Assembly (NCBI GenBank): GCA_021789935.1
Contig: JAJYIR010000026.1
Coordinates: 1 to 33,400 of the forward strand
DNA from: Nitrospirota bacterium
GTDB taxonomy: Bacteria; Nitrospirota; Thermodesulfovibrionia; Thermodesulfovibrionales; JdFR-88
Reading direction: 5' to 3'
Length of the DNA stretch: 33,400 nt
Made by a program: the position numbers and the translations under genes. Shown piece after piece: positions 27,098 to 33,400 of the stretch (position 1 is the stretch's first letter; every line of letters starts with the position of its first letter). The notes under the pieces were generated by a model. It was not told the DNA's origin. It ran no database searches and worked only from the letters and a program-made list of their open reading frames with translations.

Positions 27098-27112
27098 TTC
27101 CTGAAGGTTTCC

Positions 27113-27574
27113 GTGCTAAAATGGACGATGAAGTCCGTTGCGGAAAACAGGAAGGCATTCCACGATTATTTCATAGATGAGACCTACGAGGCCGGCATCT
27201 CGCTTGTCGGAACGGAGGTCAAATCCATACGTGAAGGCAAGGCCAACCTTAAAGACAGCTACGTCCTCATAAAGGACGGAGAGGCGTTTTTGCTTAATTG
27301 CCATATCAGCCCTTACAGCCATGGCAATATCATGAACCATGATCCCTTAAGGACAAGGAAGCTCCTTCTAAAAAAAGGCGAGATAGACCGGATCAGGGGG
27401 AAGCTTCTCCAGAAGGGGTACACGCTCATTCCGACAAAAATGTACTTTAAGGGCCCTTATGTTAAAATAGAAGTAGGGCTTGCGAGAGGCAAGAAGCTCT
27501 TTGACAAACGGGAGGCTTTGAAAGAGAAAGAAGCCAACCGCCAGATTGAGAGGGCCCTTAGAAGGGCCCAGTGA
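27113..27574 (+). CDS. smpB: SsrA-binding protein SmpB
   Basis: This 153-residue protein binds tmRNA and brings it to stalled ribosomes for trans-translation. The conserved SmpB core is present: [42 protein letters not shown], then NCHISPY, then [15 protein letters not shown] and [32 protein letters not shown]; the basic C-terminal tail enters the mRNA channel. Two starts are possible: GTG 27113, supported by GAAGG 5 bases upstream, or ATG 27128 (148 residues). I list the first because of its ribosome site. The gene for its RNA partner, ssrA, begins 24 bases after the stop. A stable hairpin overlaps the end of the gene. Confidence 0.95.
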
Positions 27575-27582
27575 CTTTTTTT
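27552..27582 (+). terminator. Hairpin and T-run at the smpB 3' end
   Basis: GGGCCCT (27552-27558) and AGGGCCC (27563-27569) pair around a TAGA loop, and a run of seven T follows at 27576-27582. The stem ends just before the smpB stop codon. It has the form of an intrinsic terminator, but it lies only about 17 bases before the tmRNA 5' end, so it may instead be a processing or partial-attenuation site for a joint smpB-ssrA transcript. Confidence 0.55.
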
Positions 27583-27598
27583 ACTCTTTCTTCTCTTA

Positions 27599-27947
27599 GG
27601 GGGCGAAAGGTTTCGACGGGGGTCATGAGGCTCAGATGGCATGCCGTGGCTCCATCACCACGTAAAAAGATGGAAACAACACAAAAGCCAATAACGAACT
27701 GGCACTGGCCGCTTAACTAAAAGCGGCGCGTCTTTCCGGGAATGCCCGCGGCCCGGACGGACGAAAGAAGCGGGATAAGCTTCCGGATGGCCTTCTGCCG
27801 GAAGATGAAAACCAAACGGGGGATAGGCCCATGGCCGGGCGCGGTTGCTCGCATGGTCCGGGCCGAAATTTAAATAGGCAGCCTAAGCATGTAGAAGTCT
27901 GTGTGTAGTGCTTTCGGACGCGGGTTCGATTCCCGCCGCCTCCACCA
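27599..27947 (+). ncRNA. ssrA: Transfer-messenger RNA (tmRNA)
   Basis: This 349-base RNA frees stalled ribosomes and tags the unfinished protein. The 5' end GGGGGCG pairs with the 3' CGCCTCC before ACCA, forming the tRNA-like acceptor, and GCGGGTTCGATTCCCGC near the 3' end is the T arm. The 5' conserved GCGAAAGGTTTCGACGGGG is present. The tag reading frame starts at GGA (27672-27674) and ends in TAA (27714-27716), encoding GNNTKANNELALAA, with the usual LAA end that directs tagged proteins to ClpXP-type proteases. The gene is encoded right after smpB. No clear promoter was seen between them. Confidence 0.97.
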
Positions 27948-27969
27948 ATTAAAGTTTTTGATTCAAAGG

Positions 27970-28196: not shown

Positions 28197-28631
28197 TCAG
28201 GATTCCTGTGCTGCTCCGGTCCGGCTGTTGCGTAAAAAATCCGCCAACTTGCAATCGTCCTGCCTTACGTGCTCATTAAGCCAGTCGACTGCCGCCTGTA
28301 TCGTCCGGACGGATAATTCATACGACCCTCCGGATCCCGAGGATCTGATTTTCAGCAATTCCTCCCTTAGATCAAGCATCTGGGCCGCAAATCGGTCATG
28401 CCTTTCCTTGTGGGAAAGGTATAAGGGATATCCATAACGGCGCATATGCCTCTCCTCTTTCCGCAAATGTACTGCCGAGTAATCCTCCAGAAAAAATATC
28501 GTTTTATCTATGGCATACCGGCAGAGCTGCCATTTGACGGCCTGCTGCAGGGTGTCAATCCTCATGATTATATCTTCGAATTTTTCATCAATGAAAGTTA
28601 TGCTGCCATCAAGGTCTCCGGATAATCGCAT
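28197..28631 (-). CDS. Bacteriohemerythrin-like protein lacking one His ligand
   Basis: This 144-residue four-helix protein belongs to the hemerythrin family of non-haem di-iron oxygen carriers or sensors. The start at ATG 28631 is chosen because the AGGAGG site (28642-28647, minus strand) lies about 11 bases upstream; an ATG at 28640 would be only 2 bases away. Ligands present are H55 and E59 (AVHLRKEERHM), H74 and H78 (SHKERHDRF), and H121 and D126 (WLNEHVRQDD). The first-helix His of the usual IDxQH motif is replaced: the sequence is FIDEKFEDI, with F18 in its place. The iron site may thus be mono-iron, altered or non-functional. It stands alone on the minus strand, with its 3' end facing tmRNA. 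Confidence 0.85.
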   Translation of the reverse strand: MRLSGDLDGSITFIDEKFEDIIMRIDTLQQAVKWQLCRYAIDKTIFFLEDYSAVHLRKEERHMRRYGYPLYLSHKERHDRFAAQMLDLREELLKIRSSGSGGSYELSVRTIQAAVDWLNEHVRQDDCKLADFLRNSRTGAAQES

Positions 28632-28755
28632 GTTGAACATTACCTCCTTTCGGAATAGATACTGTCCGGCCGATGCACGAGCCGTATCATACAGTTTATT
28701 GGCCGATTATTACACCGTTATGCCGGTGCCATAAATTTTTTGTTAATTCGATTCT

Positions 28756-28960: not shown

Positions 28961-29377
28961 GCCAAAACTAAAACACTCGAACAAATGTAAAGAAGTGTTA
29001 GGGACGCTGCACTAGGGGCCATCGGCAACCATCAAGCTTCCCAAAAAACTCATCCGGTGTTCAAGGCGGCCCCGGCCAGGCAGATCGTCCGAGGGAACAT
29101 CCGATGTTTTTTATTGTCCTTCGGGCAGTGCATTATTTTTTTTAATGATACAATCTGGAATTGTAATTCGTTCGTTGTGTGAAAAAGCACTTTTTTAAAC
29201 TTTTTTGGGGAAAAAGCGCAATAAACTCTTTCCTTTAGCAATAAAAAATAGTCCTGGCCGCCCTTTGTTTTGAAAAATCTTTTGTAATTCAAGGTGTTTC
29301 CTTTTTTTTTGCGATACCTGGCACAAAAACTGCTTTATCAGTCCCTGGGAAAATATTTTCCTTTCCTAACCTCCGTA

Positions 29378-29409
29378 GGTATGGGCGCGGCGTTTCCCGC
29401 GCCCATACC
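29378..29409. repeat. GC-rich perfect hairpin
   Basis: GGTATGGGCGCGG (29378-29390) is perfectly complementary to CCGCGCCCATACC (29397-29409), with a 6-base loop CGTTTC. The 13-bp stem stands out in AT-rich surroundings. It is followed after 4 bases by an AAAGGAG ribosome site and a short open frame. It lacks a T-run, so it is more likely an RNA structure or REP-type element than a terminator. Confidence 0.7.
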
Positions 29410-29424
29410 GAATAAAGGAGTGCG

Positions 29425-29451
29425 ATGGAAAAAGCCATGGCTGGCAGATGA
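29425..29451 (+). CDS. Possible 8-residue leader peptide
   Basis: AAAGGAG at 29414-29420 lies 4 bases before ATG 29425, which opens an 8-codon frame (MEKAMAGR) closed by TGA at 29449-29451. It follows the strong hairpin at 29378-29409. Such a short frame with a good ribosome site could be a leader peptide, but there is no directly downstream gene and it may be chance. Confidence 0.2.
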   Translation: MEKAMAGR

Positions 29452-29481
29452 GGAGTTCAGGCTTCTTGAGGTTAATTTAAG

Positions 29482-29616
29482 GTGACGGGAATTGATGGAT
29501 TGATTATAAGGCATACACTTAGAAGAGGGTTTTGACAATAAATGAATAGTCAATGCGGGGTGTCCCACTGGCTTGCTGGAGAGCAGGCGACAGCGGTGGG
29601 GTGCGCCGTTTTTTTT
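29482..29616 (+). ncRNA. Candidate small RNA with intrinsic terminator
   Basis: A possible promoter, GTGACG (29482-29487), 17 bases, TATAAG (29505-29510), would start an RNA near 29517. The RNA ends in a compact structure: a 7-bp stem GCTTGCT/AGCAGGC (29571-29577 and 29582-29588) with a GGAG loop inside CCCAC/GTGGG (29564-29568 and 29596-29600), followed by GGTGCGCCG and eight T (29609-29616). Alternative pairing of GGCG (29586-29589) with CGCC (29604-29607) next to the T-run is possible, which would make the element switch-like. No known riboswitch class was recognised. Confidence 0.4.
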
Positions 29617-29713
29617 GTTGAACCGCTGGATATATATGAATTGGCGAATAATTGCAGGAAATTCTCAATTCTTAAAGACAAAGGAGGGTCATGTAAAAAA
29701 CGAATTTGAGTCT

Positions 29714-29741
29714 TTGAAGCCGTACTGGAAAATGGTACAAT
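29714..29741 (+). promoter_or_regulatory. Probable promoter of the cytochrome-porin operon
   Basis: TTGAAG (29714-29719) and TACAAT (29736-29741) are separated by 16 bases, giving a start near 29748 and a 41-base leader before the cytochrome ATG. GGAGAAGGGAG at 29773-29783 provides the ribosome site. Confidence 0.5.
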
Positions 29742-29788
29742 GCGTTCAAGTTTTTTTATAAAGTTAATTCACGGAGAAGGGAGAAGCA

Positions 29789-30739
29789 ATGAAGAAAGCT
29801 GCGTCTTTTTTAAGTCTTTGTATGGTTTTTATGCTTGCCCTGTTTTTTACAGGCACGCAAGCACGTGCGGAGGGAAGTGGTGGCTATGTAGGGCCGAATG
29901 TCTGCAAAAAATGCCATCCTTATGAGTATGGGACCTATGAAACATCAATCCACGCGAAAAAGACTATTGTCAACACGCCCGCCAACAATGAGGCGTGCGA
30001 AACCTGCCACGGTGCGGGCGCACAGCACGTCGCAAAGGGTGGAGGTGGGGGCAGCATATTTGCCTTCAATAAGGAACACTCTGCGAAAGAGAAGGCGGCC
30101 AAATGCCTGGCTTGCCATGCTCAATCAAAATGGGCCGCATTCTGGAGCCAGGGCAAGCACGCAAGGGAAGGCCTTGCCTGCACGGACTGCCATTCAATGC
30201 ATAACGGCGGCTGGAACTACCTTAAGGGCGTAACTGGCAAATACGACGTATATAACCTGTGCTTCAGGTGCCACAAGGATGTCAGGAACATGGTGAACAA
30301 GCAGTCCCATCACCCGATACTCGAGGGCAAGGTGTCCTGCGTGGACTGCCACAATCCTCATGGGACGTTCAACCGCAGGATGCTCAGGGCGGATTCTGTA
30401 AACGAGCTCTGCTATAAGTGCCATCCGGAAAAAAGAGGGCCGTTCATGAACGAGCACCCGCCGGTGGAGGAGAGCTGCCTTACCTGCCACACCCCTCACG
30501 GCAGCAACAACAACAAGCTGCAGGTGGCGCAGATAACGGTGCTTTGCGAGAGGTGCCATATAGATGGAGGCCACCAGAACGGACCGTTTACCACATTCCA
30601 GTCGTTCAATCCTCCTACAAAGGGCATTAGCAATCAGTTCGCAAGTCCCAGGGTTGTCGGCCGCATGTGCACGAACTGCCATACAAACATCCATGGATCG
30701 AACTTCCCGGGCGAACTCGGGCAAACGTTCATAAGATAG
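29789..30739 (+). CDS. Decaheme c-type cytochrome, DmsE/MtrA family
   Basis: This 316-residue periplasmic electron carrier has exactly ten CxxCH haem sites: CKKCH, CETCH, CLACH, CTDCH, CFRCH, CVDCH, CYKCH, CLTCH, CERCH and CTNCH. The signal peptide is about residues 1-27 (cut ARA|EG). The spacing of haems and the size match the DmsE/MtrA decaheme family, in which the protein plugs an outer-membrane porin to pass electrons across. Distal histidines such as QSHHPILEG and NEHPPVEESC are likely second axial ligands. The porin gene follows 12 bases later. In Shewanella the equivalent proteins carry electrons outward to Fe(III), Mn(IV) or DMSO; in Fe(II) oxidisers (PioA) they carry them inward. Direction here is not known. 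Confidence 0.95.
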   Translation: MKKAASFLSLCMVFMLALFFTGTQARAEGSGGYVGPNVCKKCHPYEYGTYETSIHAKKTIVNTPANNEACETCHGAGAQHVAKGGGGGSIFAFNKEHSAKEKAAKCLACHAQSKWAAFWSQGKHAREGLACTDCHSMHNGGWNYLKGVTGKYDVYNLCFRCHKDVRNMVNKQSHHPILEGKVSCVDCHNPHGTFNRRMLRADSVNELCYKCHPEKRGPFMNEHPPVEESCLTCHTPHGSNNNKLQVAQITVLCERCHIDGGHQNGPFTTFQSFNPPTKGISNQFASPRVVGRMCTNCHTNIHGSNFPGELGQTFIR

Positions 30740-30751
30740 GAGGGGACAATA

Positions 30752-33049
30752 ATGAAATTTAAGATACTAATAGCAAGCATGGCAATGGTCCTCCTGACGT
30801 CTGCCAGCGCATTTGCCTTTGAAAGCAGTTATATGCCAGCCGGGAGCGTGCTGCCGGGCGCAAGCGCGGTCAGCAATACGCCCGCAGTGCATGGGAATAT
30901 AAGCCTGACACCCGCAGTCGTTAATGTCTCTGGCAACAAGGCGCAGTTCAGCCCGTACAGAGACCTGACCCAGGGCGGCGGGCTCTTCAGCAATATCAAC
31001 ATCGGTTATGACAACAACCATTACTGGCTGGACCTGAAGACGACGGACCTTGGCTACAAGGACCAGTACGACCGCATTCATGGCGGCGAGTACGATGCGT
31101 TTAAGTTCGGCGTGTATCTCAACCAGATAGTCCATAACTTCACCTTCGGCGCCATAAGCCCGTATGCGGGAATCGGGACCCAGAACCTAACCTCGGGCAC
31201 CGGCACATGGTCCACCACCCTGCCTACGAACCCGGGCCAGTGGCCTACCACCTTCAATTATTCCACGCAGCGGACCCGGGTGGGCGGCAACTTCAACGTG
31301 AACCTGCTCGATAACATCTTCCTCGATTTTTCGATGATGAATGAGCACAAGACCGGCATCTATCCCCTTGGGGGCGGCACCGGGTCGAACGGTGCAATCG
31401 AGCTGCCGGTGCCGATAGACTGGTGGACGCAGGACTATAATACGGCGCTGCTGTACCAGGCCAGGCCGCTTTTCGCACAGGCCGGCTTTGATTACAGCAA
31501 CTTCAGCGACCACGACCAGTTCGTCAACTTCGAGTTCCCCGGCGGAAACTTCGAGTCCGACACGCTGTCTATGCCGTCTGGCAATGACTATTACAAGGCG
31601 TACTTCAAGGGTTCGCTGCAACTGCCTTATTACTCCCATTTAAATGTGAACGTTGGCAAATCCAGGTATGAATCGACTGCCGATCTTACTCCCTTTTTAA
31701 ATGGAGGAAACGGTAATATTTTCGGGGGCGTTACCCTTGACAATACCGACGACCACTGGGTAGGGATGCCGAACACGACGACCTTTAACGGCAAGCGCGA
31801 CGTCACGAACATTGACGTCACCTTGACCAGCAACCCCATCCGGTGGCTGGATGGCAGGCTGTTCTACAAGTACTACGATTCGACGAACAACTCCCAGGAT
31901 GTGATCGTTCCGGTATCCAATTCCGCAACTGGGATATCGACGGTGTCGCCAATGGTATTTAACTACAAGACAAGCACCTACGGCGTGGACCTGGGCTGGG
32001 AGCTGCCTATGGAATTCCATCTCGACACGCAGTATTCGCTCGTGCACACAGAGAGGCCGGATGCCAGCTTCCACAGTTTCCACCTCCCCTCGACCAACGA
32101 CAACACTTACTATGCTGAACTCAGATGGAACGGGCTGGACTGGCTCACTCCAAGGGTCTCATTCAGGGACTTCAACAGGAACGGCGAGGGAATAACAGAC
32201 CCTAGTTCCCCTGTGCAAGTTCAGACAGATCCTGAGTTTGGTAATCCAGCAGACAACAATGTTCAGCTCCTGGAGTACTTCAACATAGCCGCCCAGCACT
32301 CGAAGACTTACAGGGCTGAGATCGACACGAATCCTATCAACAACTTAGAGTTCGACGTTGCGTACCGGTACAACACTACTTTCTGTCCCGATAGCCAGGT
32401 TGGCCTCCAGTCTTCAAGGTCCAACGAGTGGGACGTGAACTCCAGCTATAAGGTAGGGCAGGTTGCCCGCTTCGACGGTTATTTCGACCTGGACAACATC
32501 AAGACCGACCAGCTGGCAGACAACAATGCAGAAGCACCCAGCGCTACGGACTTGACAACGACGTTCTACACGGACCAGACCGTGAAGGACTATGAGTATG
32601 AGTGGGGATTGGGCAGCACCGTGTATGTCATTCCCGACAAGCTCACGTTCAACATCAGGTACGACTACATGCAGACCAACGGGCGTAACGACTACACCAT
32701 AGTCACCGACAAAGCCCTTGATGCGCTTTCCGGAATCGGGCCTAATAGCGGTTTCCCCGCGGGGGCTAATGAGTCCAACATAAGCCCGCAGTACGCCACC
32801 TACAAGGACAGTGCCGTAAGCGCGAAGCTGACGTACAACTTCACGCCTTCTCTGGCGCTCACCGGTGGTGCGGAGTTCGACCACTTCGAGTACAACAACA
32901 TCAATATCGACGGTTACCAGTACGTGTACGAGACGACAAAATATGCGACAGGAGCATTACAAAGCGGACCGTATTTCCTGAGCGGCGCGTATTCATCACC
33001 GTCTTACAACGCGAACGTTGAGTTCCTGACGTTGGCTTACAAGTTTTAA
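30752..33049 (+). CDS. MtrB/PioB-family decaheme-associated outer-membrane beta-barrel
   Basis: This 765-residue porin would form the outer-membrane sheath for the decaheme cytochrome. A signal peptide (MKFKILIASMAMVLLTSASAFA, about residues 1-22) is followed by alternating amphipathic strands rich in aromatic residues, with repeated motifs such as LDLKTTDLGYKDQYDRIHGGEYD, RWLDGRLFYKYYDS and LTFNIRYDYMQTNGRNDYT. The last residue is Phe (FLTLAYKF), the outer-membrane assembly signal. The CxxC pair near the N-terminus of Shewanella MtrB is absent; the only Cys is in TTFCPDS. AGGAGGGG just before the ATG is a strong ribosome site and overlaps the cytochrome stop region, so the two genes are one operon. 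Length exceeds Shewanella MtrB (about 700). Confidence 0.93.
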   Translation: MKFKILIASMAMVLLTSASAFAFESSYMPAGSVLPGASAVSNTPAVHGNISLTPAVVNVSGNKAQFSPYRDLTQGGGLFSNINIGYDNNHYWLDLKTTDLGYKDQYDRIHGGEYDAFKFGVYLNQIVHNFTFGAISPYAGIGTQNLTSGTGTWSTTLPTNPGQWPTTFNYSTQRTRVGGNFNVNLLDNIFLDFSMMNEHKTGIYPLGGGTGSNGAIELPVPIDWWTQDYNTALLYQARPLFAQAGFDYSNFSDHDQFVNFEFPGGNFESDTLSMPSGNDYYKAYFKGSLQLPYYSHLNVNVGKSRYESTADLTPFLNGGNGNIFGGVTLDNTDDHWVGMPNTTTFNGKRDVTNIDVTLTSNPIRWLDGRLFYKYYDSTNNSQDVIVPVSNSATGISTVSPMVFNYKTSTYGVDLGWELPMEFHLDTQYSLVHTERPDASFHSFHLPSTNDNTYYAELRWNGLDWLTPRVSFRDFNRNGEGITDPSSPVQVQTDPEFGNPADNNVQLLEYFNIAAQHSKTYRAEIDTNPINNLEFDVAYRYNTTFCPDSQVGLQSSRSNEWDVNSSYKVGQVARFDGYFDLDNIKTDQLADNNAEAPSATDLTTTFYTDQTVKDYEYEWGLGSTVYVIPDKLTFNIRYDYMQTNGRNDYTIVTDKALDALSGIGPNSGFPAGANESNISPQYATYKDSAVSAKLTYNFTPSLALTGGAEFDHFEYNNINIDGYQYVYETTKYATGALQSGPYFLSGAYSSPSYNANVEFLTLAYKF

Positions 33050-33066
33050 CTGACTCACGTCTTGCG

Positions 33067-33099
33067 AAAAAGGAGGGCGGATATCCGCCCTCCTTTTTT
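33067..33099. terminator. Strong bidirectional intrinsic terminator
   Basis: A-run, GGAGGGCGG (33072-33080), ATAT loop, CCGCCCTCC (33085-33093), then six T (33094-33099). It is a perfect 9-bp GC-rich stem flanked by A and T runs, 18 bases after the porin stop. It ends the cytochrome-porin transcript and would also stop transcription coming from the right. Confidence 0.9.
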
Positions 33100-33277
33100 G
33101 TTCACAGTTAAAAAAGCTGCCTTGCTTTCCGATAGCGAATATGCGAGGATTGTTAGAGGGTGTCTGAGACTGGAAAACAATCCCTCTCCCGATGGTAAAC
33201 ACACAAAGAAATTGAAAGTGTATAAAGACCTTTACAGGCTAAGAATCGGCACCTATAGAGTTGTCTTTTTATGGTAA
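33098..33277 (+). pseudogene. Decayed RelE/ParE-type toxin fragment
   Basis: The frame reads FTVKKAALLSDSEYARIVRGCLRLENNPSPDGKHTKKLKVYKDLYRLRIGTYRVVFLW in pieces: the central part (LRLENNPSPDGKHTKKL, YRLRIGTYRVVF) matches the RelE/ParE fold, with the typical RxGxYRV strand. The N-terminal part of the fold is missing several residues, the only upstream start is a TTG in the terminator T-run, and the frame ends TGG-TAA right after RVVF where normal toxins have another 15-20 residues. No antitoxin gene is adjacent. It is probably a pseudogene left from a toxin-antitoxin pair. Confidence 0.6.
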
Positions 33278-33359: not shown

Positions 33360-33400
33360 ATGGGAAAAACAGATCGCATTGAACGGCGTGAATACTGGAC
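33360..33400 (+). CDS. Start of an unidentified gene (3' end outside window)
   Basis: AGGAGG at 33345-33350 lies 9 bases before ATG 33360. Only 13 full codons are visible (MGKTDRIERREYW, then T partial). The basic, Glu/Arg-rich start with ERREYW resembles beginnings of PilZ-type proteins, but too little is present to name it. The 82 bases before it hold no other feature that I can support. Confidence 0.7.
   Translation, partial: MGKTDRIERREYW

Follow-up and report, generated by a model that had tools for sequence, protein, structure and literature searches.

What does a decaheme cytochrome encoded beside an outer-membrane porin do in a genome that lacks the outer cytochrome MtrC? The question is raised by contig JAJYIR010000026.1 of a Nitrospirota bacterium (assembly GCA_021789935.1), analysed here as a single stretch of 33,400 nucleotides (the window). 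Close to its end lie genes for a decaheme c-type cytochrome of the MtrA/DmsE family and for an MtrB/PioB-type porin (Table 1). An earlier note on this DNA had read the pair as an electron conduit without a surface cytochrome, directed inward for the oxidation of Fe(II) or Mn(II), or else outward using another partner. The pair appears to be an MtrAB/MtoAB-type heme wire across the outer membrane and, with a somewhat better than even chance, it carries electrons outward, with a soluble or chelated compound or a surface cytochrome other than MtrC as the acceptor. It is the second half of the earlier proposal that survives best. The source assembly, a draft, totals 2.47 Mb over 60 contigs, with completeness rated at 100% and contamination at 0.61%. 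The window is the whole of its contig C26, which ends at 33400, 351 nt past the porin gene.

All ten CxxCH sites previously counted in the cytochrome were confirmed, at residues 39, 70, 106, 131, 158, 184, 208, 230, 253 and 294. Its N-terminus, read by eye, is of the Sec type and without a lipobox. The protein scores 245.1 bits against NCBIfam TIGR03508 (curated cut-off 192.2) and 119.1 bits against Pfam Paired_CXXCH_1, far above chance, and matches the MtrA chain of Shewanella baltica (6r2q_A) with an E-value of 7.8e-47. The name of TIGR03508, "DmsE family", does not discriminate, because the MtrA of a Photobacterium mtrCAB cluster also passes its cut-off, at 322 bits. There is a clear match to the GSU2203-family decaheme (NF041028, 227.4 bits), but the window protein is below the model cut-off of 325. 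The ten CxxCH motifs are invariant across 20 aligned decaheme sequences. Ten His residues outside these motifs align with His residues of S. baltica MtrA, in an alignment read by eye, and all of them but H138 show little or no variation among the 20 sequences.

The porin has the length and the final Phe reported before, and is the only protein in the genome that matches Pfam PF11854 (MtrB_PioB; 173.5 bits, cut-off 23). An AlphaFold2 model built on a 21-row alignment has a predicted local distance difference test score (pLDDT) of 73 and 26 strands of at least 8 residues. Read by eye, the strand list places short turns at the end of the barrel that bears the termini and longer loops at the other. 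The best solved match of the model in Foldseek is MtrB (6r2q_B; E 5.8e-36, TM-score 0.85 on the target), and VIA-align gives a Z of 24.1 and a root-mean-square deviation of 3.2 over 631 residues, the next row having a Z of 15.4. The barrel claimed earlier is thus predicted to be a 26-strand barrel of the MtrB type. Barrels of 26 strands are also predicted for MtoB and PioB (PMC10654088), so the fold cannot decide between MtrB and MtoB/PioB. The porin has a single Cys, at residue 545, and can therefore have no CxxC, as the earlier note had observed. Such a CxxC, a feature of gammaproteobacterial MtrB, is present near the N-terminus of the Photobacterium MtrB (locus L090). As an indicator of function its loss says little, since the motif is absent from all 21 of the porins of named relatives and since Mto and Pio proteins form no function-specific clade in the account given by Baker et al. 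(PMC8805035).

The pairing of the two genes is conserved. The window porin is 61% identical to its counterpart in a genome of the same genus and 51-52% identical to the counterparts in two genomes of the same family, and the relatives with public titles are Nitrospirae metagenome-assembled genomes (MAGs), Candidatus Magnetominusculus and a few delta-proteobacterial MAGs. Of the 22 named loci, 21 have a multiheme open reading frame (ORF) immediately before the porin, and the contig of the remaining one begins inside the porin. Twenty of these ORFs have ten CxxCH and one, cut by a contig edge, has nine. No neighbour besides the pair is common to most of the relatives' loci compared. Tandem copies of the entire decaheme-porin pair are seen at G163:C9 (L105) and G344:C105 (L115).

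In a porin tree of 40 rows the window falls within a clade of 28, with support of 100/100. The rows are the window, 20 of the 22 named loci (without L036 and L040), 18 of the 29 survey loci L091-L119 and L090; the other survey loci were incomplete, duplicated a named locus or were not selected. The clade includes one near-duplicate pair (L037 and L101, distance 0). Outside it fall the MtrC-linked porins of L090, on a long branch, and L091 (genome G168), the first from a Photobacterium plasmid with genes that score as MtrC, MtrA and MtrB. The decaheme tree, made of the window, 19 of the 22 named loci (without L030, L036 and L040) and 22 others, is concordant, with a 26-row clade (100/98) that includes the window and excludes L090 and L091. 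The clade of such pairs spans the order and class of Nitrospirota to which the window belongs and some delta-proteobacterial MAGs.

The absence of a third gene, as stated in the earlier note, could not be read from the window, because the contig stops so soon after the porin, and needed a genome-wide test. With the OmcA/MtrC model TIGR03507 all 16 candidates in the genome were scored and the best reached 16.1 bits against a cut-off of 209.3, which supports a conduit of the MtrAB/PioAB type without MtrC. Among the relatives, no further ORF with at least eight CxxCH is present in the 22 named loci, eight of which reach 5 kb or more beyond the porin in each direction; ORFs with 4-5 CxxCH occur near the pair in L028 and L035. 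CymA, another homologue that the earlier note had named for searching along with MtrC/OmcA, also gave nothing over cut-off in the genome, although the best NapC/CymA score (PF03264) is close, at 21.7 bits against 24.1.

The same question was put to an even sample of 395 Nitrospirota genomes from a larger group. At most three porin, four OmcS and two MtrC first-look candidates were scored per genome, so that misses are possible; G002, the closest relative, was not sampled, and the OmcS-positive G003 carries a porin fragment at a contig end and was not counted as a porin genome. An MtrB/PioB match was found in 44 genomes and an OmcA/MtrC match in 14 (9 over cut-off), with three having both. The frequency of MtrC with the porin, 3 of 44, compares with 14 of 395 overall (p 0.20), in a count that may be too low. 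MtrC, decaheme and porin are together on one contig in G168, and in G098 and G115 MtrC is on a different contig from the porins. No MtrC/OmcA match was thus obtained among the top two candidates for 41 of the 44 porin-bearing genomes. The lack of MtrC beside mtrAB, or from a whole genome, should not be seen as the mark of an iron oxidiser.

Porin-cytochrome pairs without MtrC have been published as PioAB, MtoAB and "mto-like" systems (PMC6831781, PMC10654088, PMC6137239), the last being the term used in PMC6137239 for systems without an extracellular cytochrome. The pair is a good example of this known kind rather than a new system. No paper on this Nitrospirota clade was found by title or abstract opening in the open-licence literature, and "Nitrospir" does not occur in the main text of Baker et al. 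(PMC8805035). With the MtrAB of Shewanella MtrCAB (S. baltica, 6r2q) the pair shares a periplasmic-type decaheme, a 26-strand barrel, the order A-B and the best solved match for both chains. It differs in the lack of an MtrC/OmcA match and of CymA over cut-off in its genome, and in a porin that has no CxxC and, on structural alignment, is 18% identical to 6r2q_B. MtoAB of Sideroxydans, compared by gene content and description rather than sequence, is likewise a porin-decaheme pair without MtrC and without a long N-terminal extension, but the window genome has neither CymA over cut-off nor a heme-copper oxidase match. PioABC of Rhodopseudomonas palustris TIE-1, compared by description rather than sequence, differs in the N-terminal extension of about 200 residues described for PioA (PMC6831781), which the window decaheme lacks, and the high-potential iron-sulfur protein PioC was not seen in the sequence between the porin and the contig end. 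In Desulfobacterota, mtrAB are described as clustered, with mtrC not always adjacent and with Mtr and Omc pathways that may share a genome (PMC12133095); here, in contrast, MtrC is absent from the whole draft genome.

That the pair forms a conduit is suggested by the match of its two proteins to the two chains of S. baltica 6r2q and by the decaheme-porin gene order kept in the named loci. By analogy with the MtrAB structure, the periplasmic decaheme would thread into the barrel, making an insulated heme wire across the outer membrane. Respiratory electrons would pass outward through this wire from periplasmic multiheme carriers. Two exits are proposed, namely uptake by soluble or chelated acceptors that meet the wire at the mouth of the barrel, and transfer to a surface cytochrome other than MtrC. 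There is a precedent for the first of these exits. A suppressor form of MtrAB without outer-membrane cytochromes reduces Fe(III)-citrate (PMC12175506), so the premise of the earlier note that MtrAB needs MtrC was too strong. According to the same source, S. oneidensis without all outer-membrane cytochromes reduces anthraquinone-2,6-disulfonate (AQDS) at 141 nmol per min and optical density unit, compared with 209 in the suppressor, although entry of AQDS into the periplasm is also discussed by its authors.

Outward flow is further favoured by the respiratory gene content, in which there are six OmcS-like proteins. No heme-copper oxidase (COX1) match was found in the genome, in a search that was positive for 8 of 14 control genomes and did not cover bd oxidase. 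Also in favour of outward flow, no Nar or Nap over cut-off is present among the six molybdopterin (PF00384) loci. One of these scores as a formate dehydrogenase (689 bits against a cut-off of 666) and two score over cut-off as NuoG; a NuoG-like, a TtrA-like and a PhsA-like protein make up the rest. The TtrA-like and PhsA-like proteins are under their cut-offs and are encoded on contigs other than that of the pair. The host looks anaerobic. The formate dehydrogenase gene (L140, G000:C53:58414-59679) is split by an in-frame TGA, perhaps encoding selenocysteine.

The genome is rich in other cytochromes, with 356 CxxCH pattern matches compared to 71 for the reversed control pattern. The first 100 match positions listed reach contig C23, and later contigs were seen through the OmcA/MtrC, NapC/CymA and other searches. 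Proteins with 13 and 8 CxxCH were found in the stretches fetched from contig C2. Six OmcS-like hexaheme proteins are encoded at L079, L082, L083 and L086 (contigs C37, C50, C24 and C8 of the window genome, G000). The one at G000:C24:46697-48034, with six CxxCH, is a full-length match to OmcS (6ef8_A; E 2e-137, query 40-446 to chain 1-407), and the other five match it at 31-44% identity. The earlier claim that there is no surface cytochrome thus holds for OmcA/MtrC and fails for other surface-type cytochromes. OmcS has already been published from Thermodesulfovibrionia (PMC8478452), probably the class of the window genome. One of the C37 genes and the C8 gene adjoin genes for large tetratricopeptide-repeat proteins with hydrophobic N-terminal parts, as judged by eye. 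Two adjoining heme-rich cytochromes, one of 470 residues with 16 CxxCH and one of 680 residues with 26, are encoded on the minus strand at L079:3259-6668 (G000:C37) beside an NHL-repeat protein.

Several results weigh against an outward MtrAB-type wire in this host. The window porin scores 106.4 bits against NCBIfam TIGR03509, under the curated cut-off of 240.05, as do those of its relatives L021 (112.2) and L032 (203.3), in contrast to the MtrC-linked porins of L090 (551.1) and L091 (469.9), which are over it. By these scores, the clade of the window porin is a divergent branch. The AlphaFold model of the decaheme, made without hemes, is unusable (pLDDT 45). OmcS occurs with the pair in only 3 of the 44 porin genomes of the survey (G000, G010 and G115) compared with 23 of 395 overall (expected 2.6, Fisher p 0.73). 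Within the window's own family, G001, G005, G007 and G009 have OmcS without a porin match and G008 has a porin without an OmcS match. OmcS as an obligatory partner is therefore rejected, its co-occurrence with the pair being at chance level, and an OmcS nanowire, though attractive as a partner, may be one in this genome only.

The alternative that fares best is that the same wire runs inward under anaerobic conditions, with Fe(II) minerals, Fe(0) or a syntrophic partner as the source of electrons for the reduction of sulfur compounds or for carbon fixation. This is possible, if tentative. PioAB is an inward two-protein system (PMC6831781) and MtrCAB has been driven in the oxidising direction in the laboratory (PMC8805035). 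A sulfur metabolism is pointed to by DsrP, over its cut-off, and by the TtrA-like and PhsA-like proteins under theirs. The decaheme, however, has its first CxxCH at residue 39 and so no extension of the PioA type, CymA is not over cut-off, and there is no positive sign of an electron donor.

Returning to outward flow, a more specific and doubtful version of it is a hybrid export chain in a sulfur-metabolising host, in which the Mtr-type conduit would pass electrons directly to OmcS-type nanowires without MtrC or CymA. Two gene modules on contig C24, possibly quinol-oxidising and in keeping with outward flow in general, could feed the periplasmic cytochromes of such a chain. The first, of the Dsr type, has a tetraheme cytochrome, an iron-sulfur protein (DsrO 193 bits, cut-off 200) and DsrP (421.8 bits, cut-off 350), and in the second a Rieske protein (26.5 bits against a cut-off of 20.3) is accompanied by a cytochrome b and a pentaheme cytochrome. 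If real, the chain would unite the conduit of Shewanella with the wire of Geobacter.

It is distinctly unlikely that the conduit is a specialised one with a surface partner that is not a cytochrome. A candidate for such a partner exists in a sister subclade. Seven of the 22 named loci (L024, L028, L032, L033, L035, L039 and L041) have a gene for an FGE-sulfatase-domain (SUMF1-like) protein immediately before the decaheme, all seven matching PF03781 at 194-208 bits (cut-off 23.3). No such gene was found beside the pair in the window or in its close relatives L021 and L023.

The reading put first in the earlier note, inward oxidation of Fe(II) or Mn(II), taken here with oxygen or nitrate as the final acceptor, shares the absence of MtrC with MtoAB and PioAB. 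It is disfavoured and very unlikely, because the genome gave no heme-copper oxidase match and no Nar or Nap over cut-off among its molybdopterin loci; CymA was also not over cut-off, and Cyc2, like bd oxidase, was not among the searches. Oxidation of Mn(II) needs a high-potential acceptor.

The DmsEF alternative, which the earlier note had named, together with a nearby DmsAB, as what would refute its own reading, is that the pair feeds a surface enzyme of the dimethyl sulfoxide reductase family, as DmsE and DmsF, homologues of MtrA and MtrB, do in the DmsEFAB of Shewanella. It has the TIGR03508 score in its favour, under a name already seen not to discriminate, and is rejected as most improbable, since the best DmsA score (TIGR02166) among the six PF00384 loci is 133.5 bits against a cut-off of 777.7, the TtrA-like and PhsA-like enzymes are on other contigs, and the relatives' loci, not themselves scanned for DmsA, have no neighbour besides the pair that most of those compared share. 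The window ORFs, with 351 nt visible downstream of the porin, do not include DmsAB.

Table 1. Features at and around the decaheme-porin pair (window positions).
Feature	Position	Strand	Remarks
Decayed receiver-domain (response regulator) gene	29423..29690	+	Start by eye; intact in sister species
Promoter-like site TTGAAG-16-TACAAT	29714..29741	+	Weak evidence
Decaheme c-type cytochrome, MtrA/DmsE family	29789..30739	+	316 aa
MtrB/PioB-type outer-membrane beta-barrel porin	30752..33049	+	765 aa, C-terminal F, no CxxC
Terminator-type hairpin	33064..33101	+	17 pairs; minimum free energy -31 kcal/mol, z -7.4

The claim that the two genes form one operon is supported by their common strand and by the 12 nt between them; the promoter of their own that went with it is not. 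Six promoter-like sites are present in 4.4 kb, compared with 3.8 +/- 2.0 in shuffled sequences, the tabulated site being one of them, and its -10 hexamer is not conserved in the sister locus L021 in an alignment read by eye. None of 200 shuffles was as stable as the hairpin after the porin. The consensus terminator scan did not list it, so the strong terminator claimed earlier stands as a fold, and its T run is inside the stem. A Pfam scan of the small ORF at 33062-33274 gave no family.

Further upstream lies what remains of a regulator. In the sister MAG the order at L021 is argH, a further gene, smpB, a histidine kinase, a sigma-54 response regulator, a receiver-domain gene (PF00072, 71.8 bits) and the decaheme. 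The window retains argH, smpB and the transfer-messenger RNA gene, with 91.7% identity to L021 over 27108-27959, and has no match left to the L021 kinase or sigma-54 regulator. Comparison of 29127-29800 with L021:8233-9046 shows the receiver gene decayed and the two genes upstream of it gone, all three being intact in the sister. Positions 29449-29800 match L021:8664-9046 at 71% with gaps, and 29476-29688 still match receiver residues 54-125 at 40%. With the kinase and regulator matches gone and the receiver gene reduced to a remnant, which makes up part of the region upstream of the decaheme, the regulation of the pair seems to have changed relative to the sister. In place of the kinase and regulator genes of the sister species, the window has a gene for a hemerythrin-domain protein, on the minus strand at 28197-28640.

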